Shown: positions 2,228 through 60,076 of the stretch, piece after piece | How positions within the stretch are numbered: position 1 is the stretch's first letter | How the letters are laid out: every line of letters begins with the position of its first letter | Assembly (NCBI RefSeq): GCF_002556545.1 | Contig: NZ_CP022685.1 | Location: 9,402,001-9,466,000 of the forward strand | From: Streptomyces formicae | Lineage (GTDB): Bacteria; Actinomycetota; Actinomycetes; Streptomycetales; Streptomycetaceae | Length of the DNA: 64,000 nt | Direction of reading: 5' to 3' | The notes under the pieces: model-generated | Database searches by the model: none | The model's input: the letters and a program-made list of their open reading frames with translations, nothing else | Told to the model about the DNA's origin: nothing | Made by a program: the position numbers and the translations under genes

Positions 2228-2239
2228 AGCCGTAGGTCC

Positions 2240-2270: not shown

Positions 2271-2291
2271 TTGACCACCAGACCACCGTGC

Positions 2292-7941: not shown

Positions 7942-8059
7942 CGTGTGCCTTCCCCTCGATCGCTCCGCGGTTACCCGCGGATTCCGTGGGGCCAGTCTCG
8001 GTCGGTGTGCCGCAATGGGCATTGTTCGTTGCTGTTTCGGCAAGTCCGGTCCGGCGCGG

Positions 8060-10925: not shown

Positions 10926-10933
10926 CCGCGAGC

Positions 10934-10980
10934 GTCGCCTGAGGCGCGAAGAGGGCGCGAGTTCCGGCGCCTCAGGTGAC
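10934..10980. terminator. Long hairpin between convergent genes
   Basis: GTCGCCTGAGGCGC (10934-10947) pairs with GCGCCTCAGGTGAC (10967-10980) over 14 bp with one G-U pair. The right arm overlaps the last codons of the convergent marR-type gene. It is a strong candidate for two-way termination. Confidence 0.7.
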
Positions 10981-13693: not shown

Positions 13694-13713
13694 ACACGCA
13701 AGGAGCAAGCTCC

Positions 13714-16839: not shown

Positions 16840-16863
16840 GCGAAGCGAAAGGAACGCACCCCC

Positions 16864-31804: not shown

Positions 31805-31868
31805 CGCGGTACCGCCCGACACCGGAAACCGTTTGTGGATCACTCCGGCGGGCTGGAAGCATCCCGAC

Positions 31869-32543
31869 ATGACATCGCGCACAGTCGGAATTCCCGAGGT
31901 GGACGGCACCGAAGAGGTGGCCGTGGTGATCGACGTGATGCGGGCGTTCACCACCGCCGCCTGGGCCTTCCACCGCGGTGTGGAGAAGATCGTTCTCGCT
32001 GCCGACGTGGCTGAGGCACTGGCGGTCAAGGAGCGTCACCCGGGCTGGTTGGCGCTCAAGGACGGGGCGCCTGCCGACGGGTTCGACCTGGTCAACTCTC
32101 CCGGCCTGATCCGTACGGCGGACCTGACCGGCCGTACCGTGATCCAGAAGACCACCGCGGGAACAGTGGGCGCCCTCGCGGTCGTCGAAGCCGAACTGGC
32201 GCTGTGCGCCGGCTTCGCCGTGGCGGGGGCGACCGCCCGGGCCCTCCTGGCAGCGGGCGCCGACGCGGTGACGTTCGTGGCCACCGGCGAGGAAGGCCGC
32301 GCCGCCGAGGATCTGGCCTGCGCCGACTACCTGGCCCGGCTGCTGGCCGGGGACGCTCCCGACCCGGGTCCCTGGGTGCGTCGTGCCCGCACCTCACCGG
32401 CCGCGGACGACCTGCGCGGCGGTCGGCGCGGCGGTGCTCACCCCGACGACGCGGAGCTGTGCGTCGAGGTGGACCGGTTCGACTTCGCCATGAGGGTCGG
32501 CCGTGAGAACGGGCTCGCGGTGCTGCGGCCGTTCCGGACCTGA
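31869..32543 (+). CDS. comB: 2-phosphosulfolactate phosphatase family protein (ComB-like)
   Basis: This 224-residue protein shows the ComB family pattern: [18 protein letters not shown] near the N terminus, [28 protein letters not shown], and [22 protein letters not shown]. ComB removes phosphate from 2-phosphosulfolactate in archaeal coenzyme M synthesis. In actinobacteria the true substrate is unclear and may be another phosphorylated hydroxy acid. The ATG at 31869 is preferred over an upstream GTG. It marks the left edge of the clavam region but has no obvious step there; the clavam precursor is a triose phosphate, so a role with phosphorylated C3 compounds is only a speculation. Confidence 0.82.
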
Positions 32544-32772
32544 CCGGCGGCGCATCGGCTCCCATCGGCGGGCTCCGGTCCGCACCGCATCGGCCGAGCG
32601 GGCGCCGACGGAGGCCGCTCACCCTTGCAGGCCGCTTGACGTTCCGCTCGTACGTCCGTGCCAGCCGGACACAACCCCCCGCTGCGAGACTCCCCGCGAT
32701 GCGGCAGCCGCGCGTCGTGGCTGCGGCCCTCCCCGTACACCTCCCGAGGGACTTCGCGAAGGAGCTTGCCTC

Positions 32773-34146
32773 ATGCCCACCTTCCCGGCGGCACCGATTC
32801 CCGGCCAGGACCGGACGGCACAGTGGGTCCGGGCCGACCGCGACCGGCTCATCCACCCCAATCTCCCCAGCGGCCGCACCGACCGCACCGTCATCGTCGA
32901 GGGCCGCGGCTGCCACGTGCGTGACAGTCGGGGAAGGCGGTATCTGGACGCCGCCGCGGTGCTCGGCATGATGCAGGTGGGGCACGGCCGCGAGGAGATC
33001 GTGTCGGCCGCCACCGCTCAGCTGGGCACGCTGGAGTGCTTCCACCTCTGGGAGTCCATGAGCAACGACAAGGCGATCGAGCTGGCCGTACGGCTGACCG
33101 ATCTCGCGCCCGCCGGTCTCGACCGGGCGTTCTTCACCAGCGGGGGAGCGGAGGGCAACGAGATCGCCCTGCGCATGGCGCGGTTCTTCCACTACCGCAG
33201 GCAACAGCCCGAGCGGACCTGGATCCTGTCGCGCAGGACGGCCTACCACGGCATCGCCTACGGAGCGGGAAGCGTCTCCGGGCTGCCCGTGTACCACGAG
33301 GGCTTCGGCCCCCAACTCCCGCACGTACACCACCTCACCGCCCCGGATCCCTACCAGAACTCCGCGTACGACGGTGAGGACGTGACCGAGTTCTGCCTGC
33401 GCGAACTGCGCGAGACCATCGAGCGGATCGGCCCCGACCGGATCGCGGCGATGATCGGCGAGCCGGTCATGAGCGTCGGCGGCGCGGTCGTCCCGCCGCC
33501 CGACTACTGGCCCCGGGTCGCCGAACTGCTGCGCTCCCACGGCATCCTGCTGATCTTCGACGAGGTGGTCACGGCCTACGGCAGGACCGGGCACTGGTTC
33601 GCCGCCGAACACTTCGGAGTCCGTCCCGACCTGCTCGTCACCGCGAAGGGCATCACGTCCGGCTACGTCCCGCACGGCGCGGTGCTCGTCACCGAGGAGG
33701 TCGCGGCCGCGGTCACGGGATCGACCGGATTCCCGATCGGGTTCACGTACACCGGACACCCCACCGCCTGCGCGGTCGCGCTCGCCAACCTGGACATCAT
33801 CGAGCGGGAGAAGCTGCTCGACAACGCGACGACGACCGGCGGCCACCTCGCCGACCGGCTGGCCACGCTCACCGACCTGCCCGTCGTGGGCGACGTGCGC
33901 CAGATCGGCCTGATGCTCGGCATCGAACTCGTCGCGGACAAGGAATCACGCGCCCAACTGCCCACCGGCACCGCCCCGGTGGCACAGGCGCTGCGCGAGG
34001 ACGCGGGCATCATCCTGCGCGGCAACCCGCGCTCCCTGCTGATCAACCCCCCGTTGGTGATGGACCGCGCGACGGCGGACGAGCTGGCGGACGGACTGCA
34101 CACGGTGCTGGCCCGCGTCGAGCCCGACGGACGCGTACGGCCCTAG
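32773..34146 (+). CDS. Class III PLP aminotransferase, clavam tailoring candidate
   Basis: This 457-residue omega-type aminotransferase has FFTSGGAEGNEIALRMARF (PLP phosphate region), TAYHGIAYGAGS, the Asp in LLIFDEVVTAYGRTG, and the PLP Lys at about 292 in TAKGITSGYVP. GFTYTGHPTACAVALAN is the usual class III block. The ATG at 32773 follows AAGGAG. In known 5S clavam clusters of Streptomyces clavuligerus and S. antibioticus, a class III aminotransferase (Cvm6 type) is thought to remove the amino group of clavaminic acid. That is the most likely job here, given the operon for clavaminic acid 5 kb away. It heads a plus-strand set of four genes (32773-37049) ending at a strong terminator. Confidence 0.9.
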   Translation: MPTFPAAPIPGQDRTAQWVRADRDRLIHPNLPSGRTDRTVIVEGRGCHVRDSRGRRYLDAAAVLGMMQVGHGREEIVSAATAQLGTLECFHLWESMSNDKAIELAVRLTDLAPAGLDRAFFTSGGAEGNEIALRMARFFHYRRQQPERTWILSRRTAYHGIAYGAGSVSGLPVYHEGFGPQLPHVHHLTAPDPYQNSAYDGEDVTEFCLRELRETIERIGPDRIAAMIGEPVMSVGGAVVPPPDYWPRVAELLRSHGILLIFDEVVTAYGRTGHWFAAEHFGVRPDLLVTAKGITSGYVPHGAVLVTEEVAAAVTGSTGFPIGFTYTGHPTACAVALANLDIIEREKLLDNATTTGGHLADRLATLTDLPVVGDVRQIGLMLGIELVADKESRAQLPTGTAPVAQALREDAGIILRGNPRSLLINPPLVMDRATADELADGLHTVLARVEPDGRVRP

Positions 34147-34193
34147 ACGGCCGCGGTTCCCCCCCTCCCGTTCACGCGACGAAGGAACACCTC

Positions 34194-34838
34194 ATGCCAC
34201 TCCTGGACCTGAATCCGGACGAACTCCTCACCACCACACGCTCCGTACGCAAGCGGCTCGACCTGACCAGGGCCGTACCGCTCGAACTCGTCAAGGACTG
34301 CATCCGCGTCGCCCTGCAAGCCCCGTCGGGCAGCAACCGGCAGACCTGGCACTGGGTGGTCGTGACGGACGCGGAGCAGCGGGCCGCCATAGGCCGCTAC
34401 TACCGGCGCGCGGTGCGGACGTATCTGAACTCGGAGGGCACGTGCGCCTCACTGTTCCCCGAGGACCCCGAACGCCACGCCGTGCAGCGGCGCGTGGGCG
34501 ACAGCGTGGCCCATCTGGGCGACCACCTGGGCGAGGTTCCCGTGCTCGTCATCCCCTGCCTCGACGCGAACGAGGCCCCCGAGTACAACGAGGCGGGCAA
34601 GTGGGGGTCGATCATCCAGGCCGCCTGGAGCTACATGCTCGCCGCCCGCGCACGCGGCCTCGGCACGGCCTGGACCACCTTGCACCTGATGTACGAGAAG
34701 GAGATCGCGGAACTCCTCGGCCTCCCGGACGGAATCGTCCAGGCGGCACTGATCCCGACGGCGTACTCCCTCGGCACGGAGTTCAGGCCCGCGGCGCGCC
34801 AGCCGCTCGAACAGGTCTTGCACATCGATACGTGGTGA
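34194..34838 (+). CDS. Nitroreductase-family flavoprotein
   Basis: This 214-residue protein has the FMN-binding nitroreductase fold: TTTRSVRKRLDLTRAVP, ALQAPSGSNRQTWHWVVVTD, and the C-terminal GLGTAWTTLHLMYEKEIAELLGLPDG. Members reduce nitro groups, enones, flavins or quinones using NAD(P)H, and some act as dehydrogenases in natural-product pathways. It starts 47 bases after the aminotransferase and ends 9 bases before the aldo/keto reductase gene, so it is part of the same transcript. A nitroreductase is not part of the clavam clusters known to me, which makes it a candidate for a new tailoring step. Confidence 0.9.
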   Translation: MPLLDLNPDELLTTTRSVRKRLDLTRAVPLELVKDCIRVALQAPSGSNRQTWHWVVVTDAEQRAAIGRYYRRAVRTYLNSEGTCASLFPEDPERHAVQRRVGDSVAHLGDHLGEVPVLVIPCLDANEAPEYNEAGKWGSIIQAAWSYMLAARARGLGTAWTTLHLMYEKEIAELLGLPDGIVQAALIPTAYSLGTEFRPAARQPLEQVLHIDTW

Positions 34839-34847
34839 GGAGCGGGC

Positions 34848-35855
34848 ATGCGGACCGACGGGACAAGACCTCCGCCGACGTGCGGAATCGGTGCACTGAA
34901 GCTTCCGGCGCAGGGGTTGGGCTGTCTGAGCATGACGTCCTTCTACGCGCGGGCCGACCCCGCCGAGGCCATCGCCACCGTGCACCGAGCCGTCGACCTG
35001 GGCGTCTCGCTCCTGGACACGGCGGACGTGCAGGGCCTTGGAGAGGGGGAGCGGCTGCTCGGCAAGGCCGTCGAGGGGCGGCGGGACCGTGTGCTCCTCT
35101 CCACCAAAGTGGGCCTGGAGCGGGACCGGAACGGGGAATTCCTCGGCGTACGCGGTGACCGGGCCTACATCCGGCAGCGCTGCCACGGCTCGCTGCGCCG
35201 CCTCGGCACCGACCATCTCGACCTGTACGTCAAGCACTGGGCGGCCCCCGGGGAGCGGATCGAAGAGGCGATCGAGGCCCTCGCGGAACTCGTCGACGAG
35301 GGAAAGGTCCGCCATGTGTGCCTCTCCGAGGTCTCGGCGGACACCATCCGCCGCGCCCACGCGGTGCACCCCATCACCGCCGTACAGAGCGAGTGGTCGT
35401 TGTGGAGCCGGGGCATCGAGGCGGAGGTGGTGCCGGTCTGCCGGGATCTCGGCATCGGCATCATCGCCTCGTCCCCGCTCGGACGCGGCTTCCTGACCGG
35501 GCGGATCGGCTCGGTCGCCGACCTCGGCCCTGCGGCGGACTTCCGCCACGGGCTGCCTCGGTTCACCGAGTCCGGCCTCGCGCGCAACCAGCCTCTCGTG
35601 GCGGCCCTGCGCTCCCTGGCGGCGCGCCGTGGCCTGACCCTTGCCCAACTCGCCCTGGCCTGGCTGCACCACCAAGGTGACGACGTCGTGCCCATCCCCG
35701 GCACCGCACGCCGCGACCACCTGGCGGAGAACCTCGGCGCCGCCCGCGTCGAGCTGTCCGCCGACGAACTGCGGGCCGTGACGGACGCGGTGCCGCCCAC
35801 GGCCGTCCACGGCGAGCGGTACCCGCCTTTCCTGATGCGGCTCGTCGACAACTGA
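34848..35855 (+). CDS. Aldo/keto reductase-family protein lacking the catalytic Tyr
   Basis: This 335-residue TIM-barrel protein is an aldo/keto reductase. The motif LLDTADVQGLGEGERLLGKA corresponds to DTADVYGxGxxE, so the catalytic Tyr is replaced by Gln62 while Asp57 is kept. Lys87 (LLSTKVG) and the His of LYVKHW are present. The cofactor region IPGTARRDHLAENLGA is normal. The Tyr normally donates the proton to the carbonyl, so ordinary ketone reduction may be weak or lost. Related enzymes without it can still act on C=C bonds or bind nucleotides. Aldo/keto reductases (Cvm1) occur in clavam clusters, so it is a tailoring candidate. It starts 9 bases after the nitroreductase gene. Confidence 0.88.
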   Translation: MRTDGTRPPPTCGIGALKLPAQGLGCLSMTSFYARADPAEAIATVHRAVDLGVSLLDTADVQGLGEGERLLGKAVEGRRDRVLLSTKVGLERDRNGEFLGVRGDRAYIRQRCHGSLRRLGTDHLDLYVKHWAAPGERIEEAIEALAELVDEGKVRHVCLSEVSADTIRRAHAVHPITAVQSEWSLWSRGIEAEVVPVCRDLGIGIIASSPLGRGFLTGRIGSVADLGPAADFRHGLPRFTESGLARNQPLVAALRSLAARRGLTLAQLALAWLHHQGDDVVPIPGTARRDHLAENLGAARVELSADELRAVTDAVPPTAVHGERYPPFLMRLVDN

Positions 35856-35909
35856 GCCGATCCAACGGACGAACCCCCCTTTCCGGCACTAGCAGAGGGA
35901 CGAGAGAGC

Positions 35910-37049
35910 GTGAAATTCCTCCAACTCGACCACGACGTATGCGGAAAGCTCCTGCCCGGCCTCGCCGACCGACTCGCCGACGTGCCGTTCGACGAGCTGG
36001 AGTCCCCGGCGAGTCCGGCCATCGCGCTGTTCAAGGAGTACGGCGGCACCAATCTCCTGATCCCCCGTGCGTACGGCGGGGTCGGCGCCTCCGCGCTCGA
36101 CGCGGTCAGGGTGATCCGCGCGCTGGGGTCGCTCGCACCCTCGCTCGCCGTGGCCACCGCGATGCACCACTTCTCGGTCGGCATGCTGTTCGCCGTGGGA
36201 CCGCTCTACGAGAGCAGCACCAGCATTCGGGCGTCCGTGCTCGACGTGGTCGCGAAGAACCGGTCGCTCATCGCCTCGGGGTACGCGGAGGGCCGCTCGG
36301 GCCACGGCATCCTCAGCCCGACCGTCGAGGCCCGCGAGACCCCCGGCGGCTACCTGGTCAGCGGTTCCAAGAAGCCCTGCAGCCTGTCGCGCTCGATGGA
36401 CCTGCTCACCGCGAGCGTCGCGCTGCCCGGGCCCGAAGGGGAATCCGAGATGGGTCTCCTGGTGCTTCCCGCCGATACGCCGGGCATCTCCGTGCACGAC
36501 TTCTGGTCGACGTTCCCGCTGGCCGCCGCGGAGAGCCACGAGGTCCGCCTCACCGACGTGTTCGCCGGGCCCGAGCACATCCTGCGCGCACCCGCGAACG
36601 CCGCGGAGAAGCTGGACGAGCTCAACGAGGCGGGGGTGATCTGGTTCCAGATGATCGTCGCCGCCTCGTACACCGGAGTGGCCAGCGCATTGGTCGACCT
36701 CGTCCTGAACCGGCGGCGCGGATCGGCCGACGAGCGCGCACGGCTGTGCCTCCTCATCGAGTCGGCCGCGTCCTTGGTGGAGGGGATCGCCCGCCGGATC
36801 ATGGACGACGACCTCGGCAACGACTGCGCGGCGGCCTCCCTGTTCACCCGCTTCTCCGTGCAGGACATCATCACCAGGGTCGTCAGCCAGGCGGTGGAGA
36901 TGCTGGGCGGCATGGCCTTCATCACCTCGCCGAAGGTCGCCTCCCTGGCTTCCGCCGCACAGGCCGTCGTCTTCCACCCTCCGTCGCGGGCGAGCATGAG
37001 CGAAGCGGTCGTCGACTACTACGCGGGCAAGCCGCTGTTCTTCTCCTAG
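35910..37049 (+). CDS. Acyl-CoA-dehydrogenase-fold flavoprotein, possible oxygenase
   Basis: This 379-residue protein has the acyl-CoA dehydrogenase fold: an N-terminal helical part with LLIPRAYGGVGASALDAVRVIRALG, a middle beta part (GYLVSGSKKPCSLSRSMDLL) and C-terminal FAD contacts (VSQAVEMLGGMAFITSPKV). The usual catalytic Glu could not be placed, and the C terminus (FHPPSRASMSEAV) resembles the flavin-dependent oxygenases of this superfamily. It may therefore use reduced flavin supplied by the reductase at 46488. It starts with GTG at 35910 and ends at a 24-bp hairpin facing cas. It is the last gene of the 32773-37049 set. Confidence 0.82.
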   Translation: MKFLQLDHDVCGKLLPGLADRLADVPFDELESPASPAIALFKEYGGTNLLIPRAYGGVGASALDAVRVIRALGSLAPSLAVATAMHHFSVGMLFAVGPLYESSTSIRASVLDVVAKNRSLIASGYAEGRSGHGILSPTVEARETPGGYLVSGSKKPCSLSRSMDLLTASVALPGPEGESEMGLLVLPADTPGISVHDFWSTFPLAAAESHEVRLTDVFAGPEHILRAPANAAEKLDELNEAGVIWFQMIVAASYTGVASALVDLVLNRRRGSADERARLCLLIESAASLVEGIARRIMDDDLGNDCAAASLFTRFSVQDIITRVVSQAVEMLGGMAFITSPKVASLASAAQAVVFHPPSRASMSEAVVDYYAGKPLFFS

Positions 37050-37052
37050 CCG

Positions 37053-37106
37053 CCACGCGGACGACCGGGGGCCGCCCGCACCGGCGGCCCCCGGTCGTCC
37101 GCGTGG
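37053..37106. terminator. 24-bp perfect hairpin between convergent clavam genes
   Basis: The arms at 37053-37076 and 37083-37106 are perfect complements over 24 bp with a 6-base loop. It lies directly between the acyl-CoA-dehydrogenase-like gene and cas, which are convergent, and it is the strongest terminator in the window. Confidence 0.88.
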
Positions 37107-37126
37107 TACCACGCACGTGCCTCGCG

Positions 37127-39048
<1,922 letters not shown>

Positions 39049-39086
39049 GGTGGGCCCCTCCCTTCCTGGTCGGGTACGTGACGTGG

Positions 39087-40616
39087 TCATCGCGGAACGG
39101 GACGGGCGGCGCCGGTCAGCCGGGAGGCGGCCAGTTCGACCACCGCGTCGAGCGCCACGTCGTCCGGATGGCGTCCGCCGACGACGACTTGATCGAAGAT
39201 CTCCCGGACGACCAGGCGCTTGGCCTGGCGCACGCGGTCGGGCGGGGCCCCGGCGTCCGCCAGGAGCCGGGAGAAGGACGAGCTGGTGCCCGATCCCTCG
39301 TGCACGCCGAGCTTGGGGCGGACGACGACCTCGTGCGGCAGGACGTCGCTCATGGCGGCGCGCAGCACCCACTTGTCCTGCCCGTGACGGTGCTTGAGCC
39401 CTGCCTCCAGGGACACCAGGACGTCGAGGACGTCGCGGTCCCAGTAGGGGTGGGTCGACCAGTGGCCGCCCACCGCGGAGAGCGTCGGCGTCATCTCGTT
39501 GAGGCCGTCGAAGGTCTCCATGTCGTGGCAGACGGCCGTGTCGAGCCGAGGCAGCCGGTTCTCGCGGTGCATGCCGCCGAGCGGGATGTCGGCCCCGTAA
39601 CCGGTGAGGACGCGCCGCCCCGGGCCGCCGATCCGCACGTACAGGGCGGTCAGCGGCAGCAGGTATTCGACGATGTCCGGGTCGAGGCATTCGGCGGCCC
39701 AGACCGTGTGCGGAAGCCGCCGCAGCAGCTCAGTGGTCGGGACGGTGATCTCCCGGTGCGCGGAGCCGACGTGCCGGGCCACGACGCGCGCCTGCGGGAA
39801 CTCGTCGGCCTCGTCGGTTCCCATCGACACGGTGTCGACGGGCCTGGCCGCCCGACGGGCGGCCAGCGCCGCGACGGTCGAGGAATCGATGCCTCCCGAG
39901 AGCACCACCAGGGGCGTGCCACCTGCCGTGCGGGTCCGCACCGCGCGCTCCACCGCCCGGCGCACGGCGTCGACTGCCTCCTCCTCCGGCAGGATCCGGC
40001 GGGCGAGCGGCGGCGCCCACGTGCGGTGCGGGACGCACTTCCCGGTGGCCACCTCGATGTCGAGGACCGTGCCGGCCGGCACCTGGTGGGTGCCGGGCAG
40101 CCCCCGCACAGGGCGGGCGGGCACGGGACGCCCGGCCGGCGCGTTCCGCAGCGCCTTCGCCTCCGTCGCGGCGAGGACGCGCCCCGGGGCGACGGAGACG
40201 TACAGCGGCACCGAGCCCGCGTGGTCCGTGGCGAGCACCGCCCGCCCGGACTCCGTCACCAGGGCGGCGAACCGCCCGTTCAGGAGCCGGAAGACGTGAA
40301 GGTCGTAGACGCCGAACAGGGCGATGACGAGCGCGGCGTCGTTGCCCGGCAGCGCGCGCCCCGGCGGCAGGAGCCGGTGCAGCTCGTCCCGGTTGTACAG
40401 CTCTCCGGCGAACACCAGCGTCCTGCCCCGGGCGCGGGCGCAGGCCTCGTCCGGTGCTCCGGAGTGCAGGAGTACGGCGTGCAGGGTGCGGTCGGCCGTT
40501 CGTTCGTGCCACGTCGCCCGCGAGGCGCGTGCCGCGAAGGTCGGTGCGGGCACGTGCCCGCCGTCCTGGCGGAGTTCGGTGAGGAAGCCGATGGCGGCGG
40601 GGGAGTTCGGTGTCAT
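39087..40616 (-). CDS. bls: Beta-lactam synthetase
   Basis: This 509-residue protein is built like asparagine synthetase B. The N-terminal glutaminase-like domain has no Cys after the start (it begins TPNSPAAIG), so ammonia release is lost. The synthetase domain has the ATP loop VVLSGGIDSSTVA, Tyr in VLTGYGADIPLGG, and the catalytic Lys in RPKLGVHEGSG, as in characterised Bls. It adenylates carboxyethylarginine and closes the four-membered beta-lactam ring. A remarkable run, DKWVLRAAM followed by RPKLGVHEGSGTSSSFSRLL, is close to the S. clavuligerus protein as I recall it. It starts 5 bases after ceaS ends. Confidence 0.95.
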   Translation of the reverse strand: MTPNSPAAIGFLTELRQDGGHVPAPTFAARASRATWHERTADRTLHAVLLHSGAPDEACARARGRTLVFAGELYNRDELHRLLPPGRALPGNDAALVIALFGVYDLHVFRLLNGRFAALVTESGRAVLATDHAGSVPLYVSVAPGRVLAATEAKALRNAPAGRPVPARPVRGLPGTHQVPAGTVLDIEVATGKCVPHRTWAPPLARRILPEEEAVDAVRRAVERAVRTRTAGGTPLVVLSGGIDSSTVAALAARRAARPVDTVSMGTDEADEFPQARVVARHVGSAHREITVPTTELLRRLPHTVWAAECLDPDIVEYLLPLTALYVRIGGPGRRVLTGYGADIPLGGMHRENRLPRLDTAVCHDMETFDGLNEMTPTLSAVGGHWSTHPYWDRDVLDVLVSLEAGLKHRHGQDKWVLRAAMSDVLPHEVVVRPKLGVHEGSGTSSSFSRLLADAGAPPDRVRQAKRLVVREIFDQVVVGGRHPDDVALDAVVELAASRLTGAARPVPR

Positions 40617-40621
40617 CGGCG

Positions 40622-42437
<1,816 letters not shown>

Positions 42438-42509
42438 TGTGCCGATCGCCCCTTGCAGGGGGGTGGGCCGTCGACTTGCACGGTTCCTGTGGACGGCTGA
42501 GCCGCCACG

Positions 42510-42533
42510 GGCACACACTTCGGTGGGTGTGCC
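42510..42533. terminator. UUCG-tetraloop hairpin in the divergent region
   Basis: GGCACAC and GTGTGCC enclose AC-TTCG-GT with a two-base bulge, a very stable cUUCGg tetraloop hairpin. In the plus direction it could insulate or attenuate the regulator transcript; in the minus direction, the ceaS transcript. Confidence 0.4.
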
Positions 42534-43009
42534 TGGCGCTCCTTGGGGGGTAACGAGGCTGTTCCCACCGCCATGTGCCGCCGTGCGTGCGCATGCGGGC
42601 ACTGGTCGGGCGCCGCGGCCCCGCACGGCGGGCACGACCGTGCGCCCGTTCGCTGCCCGGACGGCCCGATGCGGGACGCAGGAGCCGCGGCAGCGGGCAA
42701 CCGGAGCCTTGTATTCAGCCAAGGGCAGGCGCAACGCGCCCCATAACGGGCGAGGACCGCGCCCCTCCGCCGGGAGAAACTGGGCGATGACGGGGCGGTT
42801 CGGATGCGTTTCTCACGTGGCTGCGGTTCTCGGGGAGAGCGCTCCCGGCCGGTGCACCGGGCCGACGCCCCGGGCTCTTAGCACGGCGGCCGGTCGAGTG
42901 ACTCAGGAACACCCGAGCGGATCTCGTTCAGCCACAAGCACCCGCGCAGGCCCGCTCCTCCGGCACCGCAGGGCGGTCCCGCGCCACGCAGAGAGGACCG
43001 GATGTCGCA

Positions 43010-45127
43010 GTGAAGCCGACCAGCCTTGACTCCCGTGCCGAAGCGTCCGAGCCGACCGGACCCGCGCCGATCGGCGCACTGGGTTCGCTCTCCGTGCGCA
43101 GCGAAGGCCGCCCTCTGGAGCTGGGGCCGCCACGCCAACGCGCGGTCCTCGCCCTGCTCCTGATCGGCGCGGGCAGTGTGGTGTCGGTCGACTCGATCAT
43201 CTCCCGCATCTGGGGCGACGCCCCGCCCGCGACCGCCAACGCGACCCTGCAGTCGTACGTGTCGCGGCTGCGCAAACTCCTTGCCGACTGCCTCCTGCCC
43301 GACGGGTCGAGGCCCCAACTGCACTACCAGCAACCGGGGTACGCGCTGGTCATCGATCCCGAGCACGTCGACGTCCACCGCTTCGAGGGAGCCGTACGGA
43401 CAGGCAGCCGGCTGGCGCAGAAGGGGAGTGCCGACGAGGCCCACGCCGTGCTGGGCGCGGCCCTGGACACCTGGGTCGGAGCGCCCTACGAGGAGCTGAG
43501 CGCCTACGACTTCGCCGTGCAGGAGGCCGCCAGGCTCGAACAACTGCGGCTCAGCGCCGTCGAGTCGTGGGCCCAGTGCGCGCTGCGCCTCGGCCGGGAG
43601 GAGAACGTGCTGCACCCCCTGGCGATCGAGGCGAAGCGCAACCCGCTGCGCGAGCGGCTCACCGGCCTGTACATGCACGCCCAGTACCGGCTCGGCCGCC
43701 AGGCGGACGCCCTGCGGACGTACGAGGAGACGCGTCAGGCCCTCGCCGAGGAGATCGGCGCGGACCCCGGCAGGGAGCTGGCGGCGCTGCACGCGGCGAT
43801 CCTGCGACAGGACTGCGCCCTGGAGCGCGCGCCCGAGTTGGCCGACCGGGGCACCGGGGACGAGGCGCGGTGCGGCCCTGCCCCGGCCTTCGAAGGACCG
43901 TCCCACCCGGTGACCGCGGCCGGATCCGGACGAATCACGATCCGCGCGCCCCGGCTCCCCACCGCGCGCGACCTCGACGCGGGATCGCCGCGCCGGGCGG
44001 ACGGCGCCCCACCCGTGTTCGTCGGCCGTGACGAGGAGTTGCGGGCCCTCGTCGACTCCGCCACGGGCGCGTTCCACACGTCGGGGCGGGTGGCGTTCCT
44101 CGTCGGTGAGGCGGGCATCGGCAAGACGCGGCTGGTGTCCGAGCTCGCCCGGACGGTCACGGAGAGCGCGCACACCGTCTGGGCGTCCTGTTCGGAGAGC
44201 GAGGACAAGCCGGACTACTGGCCATGGACGACACTCCTGCGCCGGCTGACCGCGCTCTGGCCCGACCGGGTGTGCCGATTACCCGACTGGGTGCGGCACA
44301 GCCTCGCGCACCTGCTCCCCGAGATGTGCTCGGACATCTGCGAGCCGCCCCGCCACGGGACGAGCGCGCGGCCGGTGTCGGCGCCGCTCTCCAGGGACGC
44401 CCGGTTCACGCTGCACGACGCGGTGTGCCAGGCGCTGCTGCGCACCGTCCGGGAGCCGACGGTCCTGGTCGTGGAGGACGTGGACCGGGCCGACGCGCCG
44501 TCGCTCGCCCTGCTGCGGCTTTTCGTGGAGCAACTGCGGAACGCCCCCGCCCTCCTCGTGGTCACCACCCGTACCTTCCAGCTCGCCCACGACGCCGAAC
44601 TGCGACGGGCCGCGGCCGTGATCCTCCAGTCGCTGGACGCACGCCGGATCCTGCTCGAACCGCTGGACCTCGCGGCGACCGGGACGCTCGCGTCAAGGAC
44701 GCTGGGGGAGAGCCCCGAACCCCGCCTCCTGGAAAGGCTGCACCGGCGTACCGCGGGCAATCCCTACTTCCTCGGCTACCTGCTGCACGCCGGGCAGCAG
44801 GGGCTCGCCGTCGATCCGGACGCCGCGATCCCGCACGAACTCGCCGGGGTCGTCCTGGAACGCCTGTCGGGCCTGCCGTCCGGGATCCGCCGGGTTCTCG
44901 AACTGTGCGCCGTCATGGAGGACGGCTGCGAACGACACGCCGTCGAGGCGATGCTGCGACACGAAGGCATCCCCACGGACGCGCTTCCCACGGCGCTGCA
45001 CGGCGGGTTGTTGACGCCCGACCCCGACGGAGCCGACCGGCTGCGGTTCGTCCATCCGCTGGTGCGGGAGGCGGTCCTGCACGCCCTGGAGAGCACCCGT
45101 ACGGCGTCGCCCGCCGGGGCGGCATGA
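43010..45127 (+). CDS. Large SARP regulator with AAA-type ATPase domain
   Basis: This 705-residue regulator has an N-terminal winged-helix domain (about 25-105, LELGPPRQRAVLALLLIGAG to TLQSYVSRLRKLL). A bacterial transcriptional activation domain follows (about 110-255, ending AEEIGADPGRELAALHAAIL). Then comes an ATPase domain with Walker A VGEAGIGKTRLVSE (near 366) and Walker B TVLVVEDVDRAD. Large SARPs of this type activate antibiotic clusters, and a similar regulator (Cvm7P) serves 5S clavam production in S. clavuligerus. Leu424 is encoded by TTA (44279-44281), so full translation needs the bldA tRNA. The start is GTG at 43010 with a rather distant GAGAGG. It is divergent from ceaS and probably controls it. 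Confidence 0.93.
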   Translation: MKPTSLDSRAEASEPTGPAPIGALGSLSVRSEGRPLELGPPRQRAVLALLLIGAGSVVSVDSIISRIWGDAPPATANATLQSYVSRLRKLLADCLLPDGSRPQLHYQQPGYALVIDPEHVDVHRFEGAVRTGSRLAQKGSADEAHAVLGAALDTWVGAPYEELSAYDFAVQEAARLEQLRLSAVESWAQCALRLGREENVLHPLAIEAKRNPLRERLTGLYMHAQYRLGRQADALRTYEETRQALAEEIGADPGRELAALHAAILRQDCALERAPELADRGTGDEARCGPAPAFEGPSHPVTAAGSGRITIRAPRLPTARDLDAGSPRRADGAPPVFVGRDEELRALVDSATGAFHTSGRVAFLVGEAGIGKTRLVSELARTVTESAHTVWASCSESEDKPDYWPWTTLLRRLTALWPDRVCRLPDWVRHSLAHLLPEMCSDICEPPRHGTSARPVSAPLSRDARFTLHDAVCQALLRTVREPTVLVVEDVDRADAPSLALLRLFVEQLRNAPALLVVTTRTFQLAHDAELRRAAAVILQSLDARRILLEPLDLAATGTLASRTLGESPEPRLLERLHRRTAGNPYFLGYLLHAGQQGLAVDPDAAIPHELAGVVLERLSGLPSGIRRVLELCAVMEDGCERHAVEAMLRHEGIPTDALPTALHGGLLTPDPDGADRLRFVHPLVREAVLHALESTRTASPAGAA

Positions 45128-45306
45128 GAGCGGCGTTCCCCGTTCCGTGACGTTTCCTGTGTCGCCGCGCCTCCCGTTGCGCGCCGTCCCTCGTTCAAGG
45201 GAGTTCCAGCGAACGGCGCAGCGGTCGGCAAGCGGGGCGTGTCACGGTGGCCGGGCAGGCGCCGGGAGGGCCTGTACCGGCGATTCGGGAAGGGAACCCA
45301 GGTCCG

Positions 45307-46470
45307 ATGCACGCCTCTTCTCCGCAAGGTTTCCTCGTCCACCACGGCCGCGCGGGCATCAAGGAGACATCCCCGGACTTCACCGTGATCGCCTCCGAGG
45401 TGCCCGCGGTCGCGAGCGCGGTGTTCACCCGCTCACGTTTCGCCGGACCCAGCGTCCTGCTCAGCAGGGAAGCGGTCGCGGACCGGAGCGCGCGGGGCGT
45501 CGTCGTCCTCTCCGGGAACGCCAACGTCGCCACGGGTGCGGAGGGCCGCCGTGACGCCGAGGAGATCCGCCGCCGGGTGGCCGAGGCGATCGGGGCCGAC
45601 GAGAACGACGTACTGATCGCCTCCACGGGCCTGATCGGCCACCGCTACCCCATGCCCCTCCTGCGCGCTCATGTCGCCTCGCTGCGCTGGCCGTTCCCCG
45701 GTGCCGATTTCGACGCGGCGGCGACGGCCATCATGACGACCGACACCCACCCCAAGATCCGCAGGGCGCGGTGCGGTGACGCGAGGCTGGTCGGCATCGC
45801 CAAGGGGGTGGGCATGATGGAGCCGGACATGGCGACGCTGCTCACGTTCTTCTGCACCGACGCCGCGGTGGGCCCCGTCGTCCTCGATGACGTCTTCCGG
45901 CGCGTGATGGACCGCACGTTCAACGCGTTGAGCATCGACACCGACACGTCCACCAGCGACACGGCGGCCGTCTTCGCCAGCGGTCTCGCGGGCCACGTCG
46001 ACCTCGTGGAGTTCGAAAGGGCCCTGGGCGCACTCGCGTTGGACCTGGTCAAGGACATCGCCAGGGACGGCGAGGGCGCCACCAAGCTCCTCGAGGTGCG
46101 GGTGACGGGGGCCAGGGACGTCGCCCAGGCCAAGCGTGTGGCCAAGGCCGTGGTCAACTCCCCGTTGGTGAAGACCGCCGTGCACGGCGCCGATCCGAAC
46201 TGGGGACGGGTCGCCATGGCGGTCGGCAAGTGCCAGGACGACCTGGACATCGTCCCCGAGCGCGTCACGATCAGCTTCGGCGCCCAGGAGGTGTACCCGG
46301 GGACGCCGGGCCCCAAGGAGCTGGAGCGCGTCGCGGAACACCTCAAGAACGCCGAGGTCGCGCTCCAGGTCGACCTCGGCGTCCGCCCGTACTCCACCGC
46401 TGAGTTCACGGCTTACGGCTGCGACCTCACCGAGGGGTACGTGCGGCTGAACGCCGACTACTCGACCTGA
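45307..46470 (+). CDS. oat: Ornithine acetyltransferase (ArgJ family, clavam-associated)
   Basis: This 387-residue member of the ArgJ family is a self-cleaving N-terminal nucleophile acyltransferase. The cleavage site is in DGEGATKLLEV (Ala-Thr bond, Thr as nucleophile), with earlier blocks VLSGNANVATGAEG, IASTGLIGHRYPM and KGVGMMEPDMATLL. Clavam clusters carry such a gene (oat1/oat2). Its exchange of acetyl between N-acetylornithine and glutamate raises ornithine and hence arginine supply. The primary-metabolism argJ is the alternative, but no other arg gene is adjacent. The ATG at 45307 is used. The flavin reductase follows after 17 bases. Confidence 0.9.
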   Translation: MHASSPQGFLVHHGRAGIKETSPDFTVIASEVPAVASAVFTRSRFAGPSVLLSREAVADRSARGVVVLSGNANVATGAEGRRDAEEIRRRVAEAIGADENDVLIASTGLIGHRYPMPLLRAHVASLRWPFPGADFDAAATAIMTTDTHPKIRRARCGDARLVGIAKGVGMMEPDMATLLTFFCTDAAVGPVVLDDVFRRVMDRTFNALSIDTDTSTSDTAAVFASGLAGHVDLVEFERALGALALDLVKDIARDGEGATKLLEVRVTGARDVAQAKRVAKAVVNSPLVKTAVHGADPNWGRVAMAVGKCQDDLDIVPERVTISFGAQEVYPGTPGPKELERVAEHLKNAEVALQVDLGVRPYSTAEFTAYGCDLTEGYVRLNADYST

Positions 46471-46487
46471 ACCGCGGGACCGGTGAC

Positions 46488-47072
46488 GTGATGACGTACG
46501 GCTCCCGTTCCGAGGGATCACACGAGGGCTCCGGGTGCGGTGCGGATCACCGCGGACCCGCAGCGGACCTCCGTACGGTGCTGGGGCGCTGTCCCACCGG
46601 TGTCGCCCTGATCACCGCACCTGCCCCGAGGCCGGGCGCGGACCCGCTCGGAATGGTCGTCGGCACCTTCACCTCGGTCTCCCTCGATCCACCCCTGGTG
46701 GGCTTCCTGCCCGCGCGCACCTCGACGACCTGGCCGCTGATCAGGGCCGGGGGCCGGTTCTGCGGCAACGTGCTGAGCGCGGGGCAGCGCGGTGTGTGCG
46801 AGGCGTTCGTCACGAAGTCGCCGCACCGCTGGGACCTTCCCCACCGCTGGTCGCCCTCGGGCTGCCCCCTCCTGCTCGACGCCGTCGCCTGGGTCGACTG
46901 CGCGACGTACGCGCAGTCCGACGCGGGCGACCACTGGTTCGTCACGGGCTCGGTGCGAGCGCTGGGCACCGGTCACCAGGGCCCGCCGCTGGTCTTCCTG
47001 GGCGGCCGCTACGGCACGTACGCGCCGCAATCCGGCCATCGGGACCAGACGCCGGGACCGATGACCGCCTGA
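46488..47072 (+). CDS. Flavin reductase (HpaC/ActVB-like)
   Basis: This 194-residue flavin reductase has the FMN-binding split barrel: LRTVLGRCPTGVALITAPA, VGTFTSVSLDPPLVGFLPARTSTTW, FCGNVLSAGQRGVCEAF and HWFVTGSVRALG. It makes FMNH2 or FADH2 with NAD(P)H for a partner oxygenase. Cvm3 in the S. clavuligerus clavam cluster is of the same class. A possible partner here is the acyl-CoA-dehydrogenase-like protein at 35910. GTG at 46488 and ATG at 46491 are both possible starts. It is co-transcribed with oat and followed by a hairpin. Confidence 0.9.
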   Translation: MMTYGSRSEGSHEGSGCGADHRGPAADLRTVLGRCPTGVALITAPAPRPGADPLGMVVGTFTSVSLDPPLVGFLPARTSTTWPLIRAGGRFCGNVLSAGQRGVCEAFVTKSPHRWDLPHRWSPSGCPLLLDAVAWVDCATYAQSDAGDHWFVTGSVRALGTGHQGPPLVFLGGRYGTYAPQSGHRDQTPGPMTA

Positions 47073-47336: not shown

Positions 47337-48131
47337 ATGGGGGAGTCAGTCATGGGTCGGGCGGTCGCCGCGGAGGGCGAGGACCGGCGCCGCCGCATTG
47401 TGATCAGCGCCCGGCGGGCGGGATCCGTAGACGTCACGGCGATCGCCGCCGACCTCGGGGTGTCCAAGGAGACGGTGCGGCGGGACCTGAGCACACTGGA
47501 ACGGCGCGGCCTGGTGCGGCGCACGCACGGGGGCGCGTACCCGGTGGAGAGCACGAGCTTCGAGACCACGCTGGCGTTCCGCACCGGAATGCACGCCGCG
47601 GAGAAGGCACGCATCGCCACGGCCGCCGCGGAACTCCTGAGAGACGCCGAGACGGTCTTCATCGACGAGGGCTACACCCCGCAGCTGATCGCGGAGGCGC
47701 TGCCCGACGACCGCCCGCTGATCGTGATCACCGCCTCGCTCGCCACTGCCCAAGTCCTGGCGACCCGGCCCCGGTTCACCGTGCTGCTGCTCGGCGGCCG
47801 GGTGCGTGGCCGCACGATGGCGACCGTCGACCGCTGGGCGGCGCAGATGCTTTCCGAGTTCGTCATCGACCTGGCGTACGTGGGAGCCAACGGCATCTCC
47901 CGCGAGCACGGCCTGACCACTCCCGACCCGACGGTCAGCGAGGTCAAACGGCAGGCCGTGCGCTCCTCGCGCCGCCGCGTCTTCTCCGGGGAGTACTCCA
48001 AGTTCGGCGCGGTGAGCTTCTGCCGGTTCGCCGACGCGCGCGCCTTCGACACGATCGTCACCGACACCCGCCTCCCGCGGAGCGAGGCCCGACGGTACGC
48101 ACTGCTCGGCCCCGAGGTGCTGCGGGTGTGA
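47337..48131 (+). CDS. DeoR/GlpR-family transcriptional regulator
   Basis: This 264-residue regulator has the N-terminal DeoR helix-turn-helix (VDVTAIAADLGVSKETVRRDLSTLERRGLVRRTHGG, here shown in parts: DLGVSKETVRRDL) and a C-terminal sugar-phosphate sensor domain. The sensor blocks are ETVFIDEGYTPQLIAEAL, LLGGRVRGRTMATV, LAYVGANGISREHGLTTPD and VVDTRLP-like TDTRLPRSEA. The sensor site usually has DxGTT, but here the block reads DEGYT, so ligand binding may differ. Starts at 47337 and 47352 are both ATG with good ribosome sites. It lies between the clavam cluster and the PKS, and its target is unknown. Confidence 0.9.
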   Translation: MGESVMGRAVAAEGEDRRRRIVISARRAGSVDVTAIAADLGVSKETVRRDLSTLERRGLVRRTHGGAYPVESTSFETTLAFRTGMHAAEKARIATAAAELLRDAETVFIDEGYTPQLIAEALPDDRPLIVITASLATAQVLATRPRFTVLLLGGRVRGRTMATVDRWAAQMLSEFVIDLAYVGANGISREHGLTTPDPTVSEVKRQAVRSSRRRVFSGEYSKFGAVSFCRFADARAFDTIVTDTRLPRSEARRYALLGPEVLRV

Positions 48132-48276: not shown

Positions 48277-51200
48277 TCACCGGTGATTCCCCGTCGTTCG
48301 TGCACGGATCCAGTCGCGGACCGCCGACGCCGTCGACTCCGCATGTTCCCGCATCATCGTCAGATGGTCACCGGGCACGTCCACGACCTCGTGAGCGGAC
48401 GGCCAGGACGTCCGCCAGGATTCGGCTTCCGCGGCGGCCGCCATCGCGGGGGTGGGGAGGGACGCGCGGACGAGGAGGGTGGGGGTGGTGATCGGCTCGG
48501 GCTCCCAGTCGAGGAGGATCCGGTGGTAGGCGCCCATCGCGGCCAGGACACTGTCGCCGTCCCCCGACACGTTCCCCCACAGGTCCCCGGATCGCGTGGG
48601 CGGGGCGGCCAGGGAGAGCAGCCAGTCCGTGCCGTTGTTGTCCGGCGTGATGTGGTACGTGTCGAGCAGCACCAGTCCCGCCGGTGCCCGGCCCGTGTTC
48701 TCCAGGTGCTGGGCCACCAGGTGCGCCACGTTCCCGCCCGCCGACCGCCCCACGATCACGAAGGGCCCGTTCCCCGCGTACCGCAGCACGCTCTCGGCCT
48801 GCGTACGCGCCAGCGCCGCGCGGTCCTCCGGCACGGCCCTCTCCGTGCTCGCGCTCGCACCGAGCCCAGGGTACGGGAACTCCAGGACGTCGAGGTCGTC
48901 GTGGAACGCGCCGTGGAAGCGGGGGAAGTCGCCGGCGCCCGGCGGCGCGAACGACGGCTGGAACGCCGGGAAGTAGACGACGGTCGGTCCGTCGGTGCCC
49001 GGGCGGCCGTGGGAGCGGCGGATCGGGGGCAGGGCGTGCTCGGCGCTCTGGACGGCAGTGAAGGAGGGCACTGCCCAGGACGCGGTGACGAGCAGATGCA
49101 TCGCCGCCACCGGCTGCCCTGCCGCGCTGACCGCACGGAAGAGCGAGGAGAGGGTGTACGCGGGCTGTTCGACCGAGTGGACCTCCTCGGCGGCTGTAGC
49201 CGCACCGGCGGTCGTATCGGCGTCCGCCTCGTCCTCCAGAAGGCCGAGCAGATGGTGTGCAAGGCCGTCGGCCGTCCGGTGTTCGAACACCACCGCCACC
49301 GGCAGCCTGACCGTGAGCGCCATGCTCAGCCGGTTGCGGATCTGCACGGCCGTCAGGGAGTCGAATCCGAGCTCGCCGAGCGACTTGCCTTCCGGGAGCG
49401 CGTCGGCGCCGGGGTATCCGAGCACCGAGGCCACATCGGCCCGCAGCAACTCCGCGAGCGCCGACTCCCGCGCCTCGACGGGCAGTTGGTTGAGCCTTTT
49501 CCGCCAGGCTCCCGGCGCCTCGGCATTCCGGTCGGAGTCGGAGGCCGTCGCGGCGGCCGTCGGCCGGTTCCGGCGTACGAGTCCGCGCAACAACGGCGGG
49601 ACGAGCCCGGCAGATGACCGCAGCGCACCCCGGTCGAGCAGGATCGGCGCGAGCACCGGCTCCGTGGAGCGCAGCGCGGCATCGAACAGGGCGAGGCCCT
49701 GCCGCGTGGACAGCGGAACGAGCACATCACGTGCCTGTGGGCGCTGTCGGGAGGGCCCGGAATCGGGGAGGGAGGCGGTGGCGTCCGGCGCCGCCCCCAT
49801 GCCGTCGGCGTGCTCCCACGGGCCCCACGCCAGCGACACCGTCGGCAGCCCCTCGGCGGTGCGGCGCCGGGCGAGGGCGTCGAGGAACGCGTTCGCGGCG
49901 GCGTAGTTGCCCTGGCCCGCCGGGCCGAGCAGACCGGAAACGGAGGAGAACACGACGAACGCCGAGAGCCCCATGTCCCGGGTCAGTTCATGCAGGTTCC
50001 AGGCGGCGTCGGCCTTCGGCCGGAGTACCGCGGCCATCCGCTCGGGAGTCAGCGACTCCAGCACACCGTCGTCGAGCACACCGGCGGCGTGCACCACACC
50101 GGTCAGCGGCGGTTCGCAGCGCTTGATCGCCTCGGCCAGCGCCGCGCGGTCGGCCGCGTCGCAGGCCACGATGTCGACCTGCGCCCCCAACCGCGTGAGA
50201 TCGCCGCGCAGTTCATCGGCACCGGGCGCCCGCGGCCCCCGGCGTCCGGTCAGCAGCAAGTGTCGTACGCCGTGTGCGGTGACGAGGTGGCGTGCCAGCT
50301 CCGCGCCGAGCGCGCCGGTGCCGCCGGTGATCAGTACCGTGCCGTCCGGGTCGAAGACGGTCGCCTCTCCCTCGGTCGTGTCGCCGACCAGGCCAAGCCG
50401 AGGGACCGTCACCCGCCCCTCCCGTACGCGTAGTTGGGGTTCACCGGTGGCGACCGCATCCGGCACCAGACTCAGTGACTCCGGCCGCCCGTCCACATCC
50501 ACCAGGACGACGCGGCCCGGCAGCTCCGACTGGGCCACGCGTACCAGTCCCCAGACCGCCGCACCCGCCAGGTCGGGGACGGGGGCGGTGGCGTCGCGCG
50601 TCACCACCACGAGTCGCGTGCCCGCCGTGTCCGGATCGCCCTGCCAGTCCCGCAGCGTCTCGAGGACCGTATCGGTCATTTCGTGTACGTCGGTCAGCGG
50701 ATCGGAGTCCGTGCGGCCGGTGTCGGAGTCCGTCGCGCGGGCGACGGCCGCGACGACGATGAACTGGGGGTCTTTGCCGCAGGGCAGATACCCGGCGAGG
50801 CCCAGCCGGTCGCGCCCGCGCACCACCCACGTGTGACCCGCCGACCCGGTCGACGGCTCAGGGAATGCGGCATCCGCCCACTCGGGGCGCAGGAGAGCGT
50901 GTCGTACGACGTCGTCCGTCGAGTCGGTCTGCGCGGTGGGCGGGAGTTCCCTGGTGGTCAGGGAGTCCACACGGGCCACGATTCGGCCGTGCGGGTCGGC
51001 GAGGGTGAGCGAGGCCGTGTCCGTGCCGGTACGAGTCACCCGGACGCGCAGCTCCGTGGCTCCGGAGGCGTGCAGACTGACGCCGCTCCAGGCGAACGGC
51101 ACCCTGAGCGCGGCCAGTTCGGCGGGTGCGGCGAGCAGGGGTGCGTGCAGCGCGGCGTCTAACAGCGCCGGGTGCAGCCCGAAGCGATCGGCGTCCGAGG

Positions 51201-56346: not shown

Positions 56347-56436
56347 GATTCCCCGCTCTCCAAAACCCTTGCTCTGTAACGATGTTGAGCCTACGTGGGC
56401 GAGCGTCGGACGCGATGCGGGCCTGACGTGGACGAC

Positions 56437-56463
56437 TGGACCGGACCTGTCGTGGACCGGACC
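56437..56463. promoter_or_regulatory. Direct repeat in the PKS/methyltransferase divergent promoter
   Basis: TGGACCGGACC occurs at 56437-56447 and again at 56453-56463, a 16-base period. It lies in the 185-base gap between the divergent PKS and methyltransferase genes and is a candidate activator or repressor site. Confidence 0.5.
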
Positions 56464-56531
56464 AGACGCCGACCTGATGTCGGCGCGCGCAGGATGGAGG
56501 AAGGTAGGTGGGGAGAGGGAGGGGGACACGC

Positions 56532-60004: not shown

Positions 60005-60037
60005 GCCGATGAGCCTGGTCCGGACCGCCCCGCTCAT

Positions 60038-60058
60038 CCAGGCACCGTCAGTACCTGG
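60038..60058. promoter_or_regulatory. Candidate operator of the MmyB-type regulator
   Basis: A 21-bp near-palindrome (left arm CCAGGCACCG, right arm CAGTACCTGG) matches at 8 of 10 paired positions. It is centred between the divergent SDR and regulator starts. Confidence 0.5.
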
Positions 60059-60076
60059 CTGAGCACCTAGGCGATC

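Follow-up and report, generated by a model that had tools for sequence, protein, structure and literature searches.

A Streptomyces formicae cluster of 5S-clavam type with additional nitroreductase-family and acyl-CoA-dehydrogenase-like genes

The 5S clavams, according to a passage of PMC6856088, do not inhibit beta-lactamases, and a figure legend of the same paper draws the late steps of their biosynthesis as uncharacterised. For Streptomyces clavuligerus, part of PMC3992018 lists cvm6, cvm1, cvm3 (there termed 'oxidoreductase') and cvm7/cvm7P, the counterparts of an aminotransferase, an aldo/keto reductase (AKR), a flavin reductase and a SARP regulator encoded at the Streptomyces formicae locus reported here. 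This locus lies in a window of 64,000 nucleotides (genome positions 9402001-9466000 of NZ_CP022685.1), close to the terminus of the single 9.61 Mb contig. Gene calling and Pfam placed four tailoring genes, which we call E, F, G and H, on the plus strand, followed by the minus-strand genes CAS, PAH, BLS and CEAS and then, again on the plus strand, by SARP, OAT and the flavin reductase gene O. It is very probable that this region, 32773-47072, is a 5S-clavam biosynthetic cluster. The fuller explanation, in which it represents a recurring branch of such clusters defined by F, a nitroreductase-family protein, and H, an acyl-CoA-dehydrogenase-like protein, with the chemistry proposed below for both, is one that we hold with moderate confidence.

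Assignment to the 5S clavams

The early genes bls and ceaS best matched clavam enzymes, far above their relatives in primary metabolism, and CAS and OAT likewise matched solved clavam enzymes much better than any other enzyme listed. CEAS scored 1063 bits to 1upa, in an alignment that begins at residue 32 of the open reading frame (ORF), against 262 bits for the next PDB match, an ancestral acetolactate synthase. BLS scored 637 bits to 1jgt against 90 for CarA, the sole two PDB matches at E 1e-20, and its NCBIfam asparagine synthase matches fell below their cut-offs. The BLS residues aligned to Tyr348, Glu382 and Lys443 of 1jgt (numbering counted on the alignment), which we take to be catalytic, were invariant in an alignment of 16 sequences. 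CAS passed the NCBIfam ClavSyn_CS1 cut-off (558 vs 450) and its closest solved clavaminate synthase was clavaminate synthase 3 (6vwq, 596 bits), presumably the S. antibioticus enzyme. A scan with the 16-sequence BLS alignment gave 43 loci, and the window genes were compared with each of these and with the S. clavuligerus plasmid locus L008; the absence of a gene from a locus means here its absence inside the fetched flank of at most 10 kb per side. PAH was matched in 42 of the 44 loci L008-L051 (40 at 65-91% identity and two at 49%) and, judged by its Pfam family and these matches, was like CEAS, BLS and CAS closest to clavam enzymes. Together with OAT, these proteins are well supported as the predicted enzymes that make clavaminic acid. 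The ceaS-bls-pah-cas operon, oat, the SARP gene and five tailoring genes, which had been recognised in a preliminary description of this DNA, were all present and intact.

An aminotransferase, an AKR, a flavin reductase and a SARP are usual for 5S-clavam clusters, and their presence therefore points to a 5S-clavam rather than a clavulanic acid cluster. Both markers of the 5S branch, a Cvm6-like aminotransferase and a Cvm1-like reductase, are linked here to the early genes, the likeness to Cvm1 being judged through the classical clavam loci. E is 73% identical to the aminotransferase beside bls1 in L008 and 71-84% identical to its counterparts in five other loci with E-F-G-H; SARP shares 62% over 386 residues with the L008 regulator, and PAH is 74% identical to the L008 protein. 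When plasmid records were searched for Cvm-like genes, no S. clavuligerus was among the matches listed. O, the relative of Cvm3, which we take to be a flavin reductase, is 56-60% identical to proteins of the classical clavam loci L015-L018 and L039 and 82% identical to that of L011. Relatives of E, G and O co-occur in L015, L017, L018 and L039, and in the last three a SARP relative is found as well. The tailoring set had been called unusual in the preliminary description; this is true of F and H, which are extra, but not of the aminotransferase, the AKR, the flavin reductase and the SARP, which form the normal 5S-clavam set.

Could the locus instead specify clavulanic acid, or another 3R,5R clavam, by an alternative late pathway? 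The early operon is complete and in the order of S. clavuligerus, as such a reading expects, but the late genes claR, P450 and ORF12, taken from the clavulanic acid loci L028 and L036, had no match in the 64 kb. Weak matches were given by oppA (27%, to a kinase fusion) and car (31-33%, to two distant SDR genes), while the control L036 matched all five late genes. With no real counterpart of these late genes in the window, a clavulanic acid cluster was rejected, and the unlikeness to such clusters reported earlier was borne out. The 5S-branch genes E and G also speak against a 3R,5R product, as does genome G082, where E-F-G-H is a unit of its own, apart from a clavulanic-acid-type cluster in that genome; we regard this alternative as highly improbable. 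In L036 (S. fulvorobeus) itself, the P450 and bls frames (1954-3194 and 9831-11446) are each in two pieces, through decay or assembly error.

Several genes known from other clavam loci were not found in the window. The SHMT-like transaldolase of OrfA type, a marker of valclavam and alanylclavam loci, gave no tblastn match at E 1e-8, nor did Cvm5-like (luciferase type) or Cvm2-like (SnoaL type) proteins at the same threshold, and an acetyltransferase-like gene was not found there either.

Recurrence of F and H

Three types of loci could be told apart. Type 1 (L015, L017, L018, L039 and L047, with L016 ending at a contig edge) holds E, G and SHMT-like, luciferase-like and SnoaL-like genes, together with a flavin reductase gene in all but L047. 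These loci resemble the S. clavuligerus clavam set as given in part of PMC3992018, and from the gene names in that part the SnoaL-, luciferase- and hydrolase-like genes of the classical loci would correspond to Cvm2, Cvm5 and Cvm4. Type 2 comprises the window, G351, L009 (S. cinnamoneus), L010 (S. olivoreticuli), G057 and G082, all with E-F-G-H; F of L009 was recovered with tblastn, as the GC3-based ORF caller missed or mis-called some genes at other loci. Type 3 (L012, L014 and L043, the last from Salinispora fenicalii) has F and a G with the glutamine described below, a different class III aminotransferase and, in L012 and L014, additional SHMT-like and ATP-grasp ligase genes. L011 (S. silaceus), which is broken by a contig end, carries SARP, OAT and O at 79-89% identity, and H of this species (88%) is located on another contig. 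Other bls loci, e.g. L013, L019-L026 and L044-L046, fully fit no type. None of the nine loci with F has a close SnoaL or luciferase copy, and none of the six loci with SnoaL has F; a luciferase match in L010 (30% over 135 residues) was excluded from this count. Two further loci are from Bacillota, L050 of Anoxybacillus rupiensis (bls match 10001-11431) and L051 of A. ayderensis (6800-8230). In both, genes resembling BLS (32%), CEAS (50%), PAH (49%) and OAT (47%) lie together, with no CAS match in the flanks covered; perhaps they represent a beta-lactam-type pathway beyond the actinomycetes.

In one even draw of 392 genomes from the genus, S. formicae included, bls was found in 25 (E 1e-60), F in seven (E 1e-100) and H in five (at least 74% identity), and all genomes with F or H were among those with bls. 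F and H thus appear, by their distribution, to belong to clavam metabolism. The E-F-G-H block occurs in five further genomes, G351, L009, L010, G057 and G082, and a one-genome oddity was rejected since F and H recur. By eye, 12 of the 29 H proteins of clavam type could be paired with a BLS protein of apparently the same genome among the best 120 BLS proteins. The closest named relatives, among the best 120 proteins listed per search, were from S. kanamyceticus (H 95%, BLS 88%).

Linkage to the early genes varies. The block lies at 5.53 Mb in G057 with bls at 4.54 Mb, and at 0.33 Mb in G082 with bls at 2.67 Mb, much as the S. clavuligerus clavam genes lie away from the clavulanic acid genes. 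In both cassettes, E-F-G-H is accompanied by a KAS III gene and by a divergent SARP gene. The bls gene of G082 sits in a clavulanic-acid-type locus, where the bls and P450 frames are split; G057 has an early operon and a claR-like gene, with no car match within the 20 kb taken. A KAS III-like gene adjoins H in four loci (L009 14838-15812, L010 14878-15837, G057 and G082) and was not found in the S. formicae genome or G351 at E 1e-15; acyl transfer to the clavam is a possible role. The conserved four-gene cassette, sometimes megabases from the early genes, would constitute a minimal late pathway, open to transfer and study as a single module.

The preliminary description had not expected F and H in any known clavam cluster. 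Indeed, no clavam cluster with a nitroreductase, an acyl-CoA-dehydrogenase-like protein or an N-hydroxylase was found in the open-access literature searched; in the one clavam paper that mentions acyl-CoA dehydrogenase, the passages on this enzyme concern fatty acid degradation. The two are nevertheless recurrent, forming clades of 32 (F) and 29 (H) proteins, and represent two enzymes with no earlier tie to clavams in that literature, one of them with a concrete candidate substrate class.

Candidate functions of F, G and H

G has the catalytic tetrad D57-Q62-K87-H130, in which glutamine replaces tyrosine; the position was checked against perakine reductase and rests on what we take to be the usual tetrad of AKRs. 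Glutamine was found in all 17 clavam-type homologues above 45% identity, from loci and cassettes of types 1, 2 and 3 (one 32% match, L033, was dropped); tyrosine occupies this position in all five non-clavam homologues compared (50-56% identity) and in an AKR encoded elsewhere in the S. formicae genome. The reductase is therefore altered, as described earlier, but the alteration belongs to the clavam family rather than to this cluster in particular. The lost tyrosine in the clavam AKRs examined argues against reading Cvm1 as a simple carbonyl reductase.

The 32 clavam-type F proteins form one clade (support 0.999, among 120 listed relatives) and are set apart from the other 88 by C84, A128, Y131, E133 and Q142, at five sites that hardly vary otherwise. 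Nearest outside the clade, among the best 120 listed, are actinobacterial nitroreductases at 67-74% identity. The F model (pLDDT 80) was nearest in fold to the C-terminal flavin mononucleotide (FMN) domain of FbiB, to a putative nitroreductase, to iodotyrosine deiodinase and to BluB. Identity to the FbiB domain, iodotyrosine deiodinase and BluB is 18-28%. The substrate of FbiB, dehydro-F420, has an enol-ether C=C that the enzyme reduces, and clavaminic acid has an exocyclic enol-ether C=C that is lost in 5S clavams; given this and the FbiB-like fold, F is proposed as an ene-type reductase, an assignment about which we keep slightly more doubt than confidence.

The Pfam assignment of H to the acyl-CoA dehydrogenases is weak, with the middle-domain match below the cut-off, and its best PDB sequence matches were to DszC. 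H is 62% identical to P0272, named isobutylamine N-hydroxylase in UniRef. In a tree of 83 sequences (29 of clavam type, 34 from among the 91 further homologues listed, and 20 from the genome scan, of which all but one have VlmO nearby), the clavam-type proteins form one clade (100/100) that is sister to the four proteins P0270-P0273 at 61-63% identity. Of the positions fixed in both other groups, none is altered in clavam-type H (29 vs 91 vs 19 sequences). For the roles of VlmO, VlmA, VlmB, VlmH and VlmR we follow PMC11705231 and PMC7347517. A VlmO homologue lay within 15 kb of 78 of the 103 other H-like matches in the 392 genomes, and two VlmO homologues had all four iron-site residues at the published numbers. 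Near the H-like gene, the azoxy-type loci G208, G236 and G374 carry genes for a class III aminotransferase, an aldehyde dehydrogenase and an LPG_synthase_C protein, and two of them one for a polyketide-cyclase-like protein. P0272 homologues at 39-41% were also seen on the Nostoc plasmids NZ_CP040277.1 and NZ_CP117766.1.

The structural model of H (pLDDT 89) matched DszC, TdsC and KijD3 best, with Z scores of 36.1 for DszC, 35.4 for KijD3 and 34.9 for DnmZ, against 34.1 for isovaleryl-CoA dehydrogenase. The top 18 matches, among them XiaF, which we take to be a monooxygenase, were flavin monooxygenases or nitrososynthases with the one exception 5gj7. From the VlmO-linked relatives, the fold and the UniRef-named relative, H is better read as a monooxygenase of the amine N-hydroxylase type than as an acyl-CoA dehydrogenase, and a role in beta-oxidation is disfavoured. 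Judged by sequence and model, oxygenation of an amine nitrogen by a flavin monooxygenase is the likeliest, though not a certain, role for H; for amine N-oxygenase as its specific activity, our confidence stands midway between doubt and conviction. H might instead dehydrogenate or oxidise a C-C or C-N bond of the clavam side chain, as its acyl-CoA-dehydrogenase label would imply, but the sub-cut-off middle domain, DszC as best PDB sequence match, the 17 monooxygenases or nitrososynthases among the top 18 structures and the coupling of its relatives to VlmO make this improbable.

In the pathway that we propose, CEAS, BLS, PAH, CAS and OAT would yield clavaminic acid, which the Cvm6-like E and the Cvm1-like G would commit to the 5S branch under control of the SARP. 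E would deaminate and decarboxylate, F with its FMN would reduce the exocyclic enol-ether C=C of an intermediate derived from clavaminate, in analogy to the action of the FbiB C-terminal domain on dehydro-F420, and G would carry out an unusual reduction. H, as a two-component enzyme of VlmH type receiving reduced flavin from O, would oxygenate a primary amine, either of clavaminate itself or of an aminoethyl-clavam, giving a hydroxylamine, an oxime or a later N-oxidised clavam. If H acts in this way, N-O chemistry has entered the clavams; no description of N-oxygenated clavams was found in the open-access literature. More tentatively still, an azoxy-type alkylamine N-hydroxylase and a dedicated nitroreductase-fold ene-reductase may have moved, in a Streptomyces lineage, into the 5S-clavam pathway, whose N-oxygenated products would be hydroxylamines, oximes, nitrones or nitro compounds, in two sub-branches, one with the flavin reductase and one with an acylating KAS III.

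A number of observations weigh against this proposal. E should strip the amine that H would need, so that H would have to precede E, with clavaminate as its substrate, or to use an amine restored by E. Four loci with H (L009, L010, G057 and G082) have no close O and carry the KAS III gene in its place, so O is not obligatory, and L012, L014 and L043 have F but no H. A SnoaL-like protein encoded elsewhere in the S. formicae genome (G000:C1:5951471-5951914), 65% identical to the classical-locus one and in an unrelated neighbourhood, speaks against a strict exclusion of F and SnoaL. No VlmO lay within 15 kb of 25 of the 103 H-like matches or near any of the five clavam-type H genes of the 392-genome sample. 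The context of the sister proteins P0270-P0273 gave no help: a class-wide scan matched seven of 394 genomes, with the S. formicae genome first and the best other match at 49%, and plasmid matches were all below 50%. The fold margin of H is small, monooxygenases and dehydrogenases lying about 2 Z apart and 5gj7, a putative acyl-CoA dehydrogenase, reaching 35.0, and in the Foldseek ranking the two classes are intermixed from rank 4. The F model is moderate, and the four other models of F ranged from pLDDT 73 down to 46.

H and O might also replace the Cvm5-like luciferase-type monooxygenase and Cvm3, so that a known clavam (2-hydroxymethyl- or 2-formyloxymethylclavam) is made by unrelated enzymes. 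The relation of O to the classical flavin reductases fits this, as does the lack of a close luciferase copy in the six loci with H and of any luciferase homologue in the S. formicae genome or the seven genomes with F at E 1e-30. Against it, most H relatives accompany amine and azoxy genes, the KAS III-bearing loci have no close O, and the window is also without the SHMT-like gene known from the alanylclavam/valclavam route; we consider the replacement possible but unlikely. With the N-oxygenation proposal kept as the preferred one, the cluster appears from its gene content to be a new variety of 5S-clavam cluster with a complete clavaminate pathway. A new clavam, suggested earlier, is a plausible product given F and H.

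Cluster extent and comparison with known systems

The genes of the cluster are collected in Table 1. All are in frame with no internal stops, and their starts were placed by comparison with relatives. The short gaps (47 bases for E/F, 9 for F/G and 54 for G/H) and the 4-base overlap of PAH and CAS indicate an operon-like arrangement.

Table 1. Genes of the S. formicae cluster and a possible edge gene (window positions)
Gene	Predicted product	Position	Strand	Evidence
E	Class III aminotransferase, Cvm6/Cvm6P-like	32773..34146	+	PF00202 304 bits; ORF opens 32503
F	Nitroreductase-family FMN protein	34194..34838	+	PF00881 86 bits
G	Cvm1-like aldo/keto reductase	34848..35855	+	PF00248 227 bits
H	Acyl-CoA-dehydrogenase-fold flavoprotein	35910..37049	+	PDB sequence matches DszC, KijD3 (3m9v), DnmZ among others
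CAS	Clavaminate synthase	37127..38101	-	6vwq (see text)
PAH	Proclavaminate amidinohydrolase	38098..39048	-	Arginase family 295 bits
BLS	Beta-lactam synthetase	39087..40616	-	1jgt (see text)
CEAS	Carboxyethylarginine synthase	40622..42337	-	1upa (see text); ORF opens 42430
SARP	SARP with AAA domain, Cvm7/Cvm7P-like	43010..45127	+	BTAD, AAA_16, Trans_reg_C
OAT	Ornithine acetyltransferase	45307..46470	+	504 bits to 1vz6; ORF opens 45247
O	Flavin reductase, Cvm3-like	46488..47072	+	PF01613 117 bits
DeoR	DeoR-type regulator, possible edge gene	47337..48131	+	PF00455/PF08220

The G351 cluster has the same order, with identities of 84% (E), 87% (F), 80% (G), 89% (H), 86% (CAS), 89% (PAH), 80% (BLS), 87% (CEAS), 72% (SARP), 86% (OAT), 71-74% (O) and 80% (DeoR), the DeoR gene lying further out than here, behind one predicted regulator-like gene. 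Genes of the S. formicae flank, namely the ComB-like gene (31833-32543), the abhydrolase gene (30417) and the kinase fusion (27463), had no match in 60 kb around the G351 cluster, in a comparison displaying matches of more than 100 residues and more than 30% identity. As these flanking genes are unmatched there, the cluster is taken to run from E to O, perhaps up to DeoR. The ComB-like, abhydrolase and kinase fusion genes and the polyketide synthase (PKS) gene at 48277-56529 were rejected as members for want of a G351 orthologue. The left edge of 31869 proposed earlier took in the ComB-like gene and was moved accordingly to the start of E. Elsewhere in the window, 27463-30288 (minus strand) encodes a Ser/Thr kinase domain fused with a family 5 extracellular solute-binding protein, and 13309-18129 (plus strand) an A-PCP-reductase protein resembling carboxylic acid reductases, followed by a flavin amine oxidase.

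The PKS gene, on the minus strand, encodes a single-module nonribosomal peptide synthetase (NRPS)-PKS with the domains A-PCP-KS-AT-DH-KR-ACP-TE, and an O-methyltransferase and an SDR are encoded nearby (56508-58271, 59201-60793). It begins 145 bases past the DeoR gene, and PKS genes lie near L009 and L010 too, with a match of up to 55% in G018, so that the NRPS-PKS might add an acyl or peptide part to the clavam. In the S. olivoreticuli strain YNK-FS0020, of the same species as L010 with its E-F-G-H, part of PMC12472026 gives a region of T1PKS, PKS-like, NRPS and blactam type scored as valclavam, with a similarity of 57 and neither a product nor a mention of F or H. In G351, however, the near-identical cluster has no PKS orthologue (best match 33%, 7 kb away), and we judge matches of 35-55% to be expectable between any two PKS modules. 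A contribution of the NRPS-PKS is quite improbable, and it is likely a separate cluster.

Among described systems, valanimycin biosynthesis offers a parallel to the proposed role of H: the isobutylamine N-hydroxylase VlmH, which works with VlmR, has 378 residues and is two-component according to passages of PMC7347517 and PMC11705231, while H has 379 residues, with the flavin reductase O in its cluster, and belongs to a family tied to VlmO. H differs from VlmH and the azoxy clusters in being tied to clavam genes, and the S. formicae genome has no VlmO homologue at E 1e-20. The valclavam-like loci L015, L017 and L018 (Kitasatospora aureofaciens), through which the type of S. antibioticus Tu1718 was compared, have E, G and O in common with the window; they carry SHMT-like, luciferase and SnoaL genes, with ATP-grasp genes in L015 and L017, and are without F and H. 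The S. clavuligerus set, cvm1-cvm13/cas1 together with ceaS1-bls1-pah1-oat1-cvm6P-cvm7P on pSCL4, shares with the window the aminotransferase, the AKR, the flavin reductase, the SARP and the early genes. Relative to that set, the S. formicae cluster is without the SnoaL-, luciferase-, acetyltransferase- and SHMT-like genes, and has F and H in addition.

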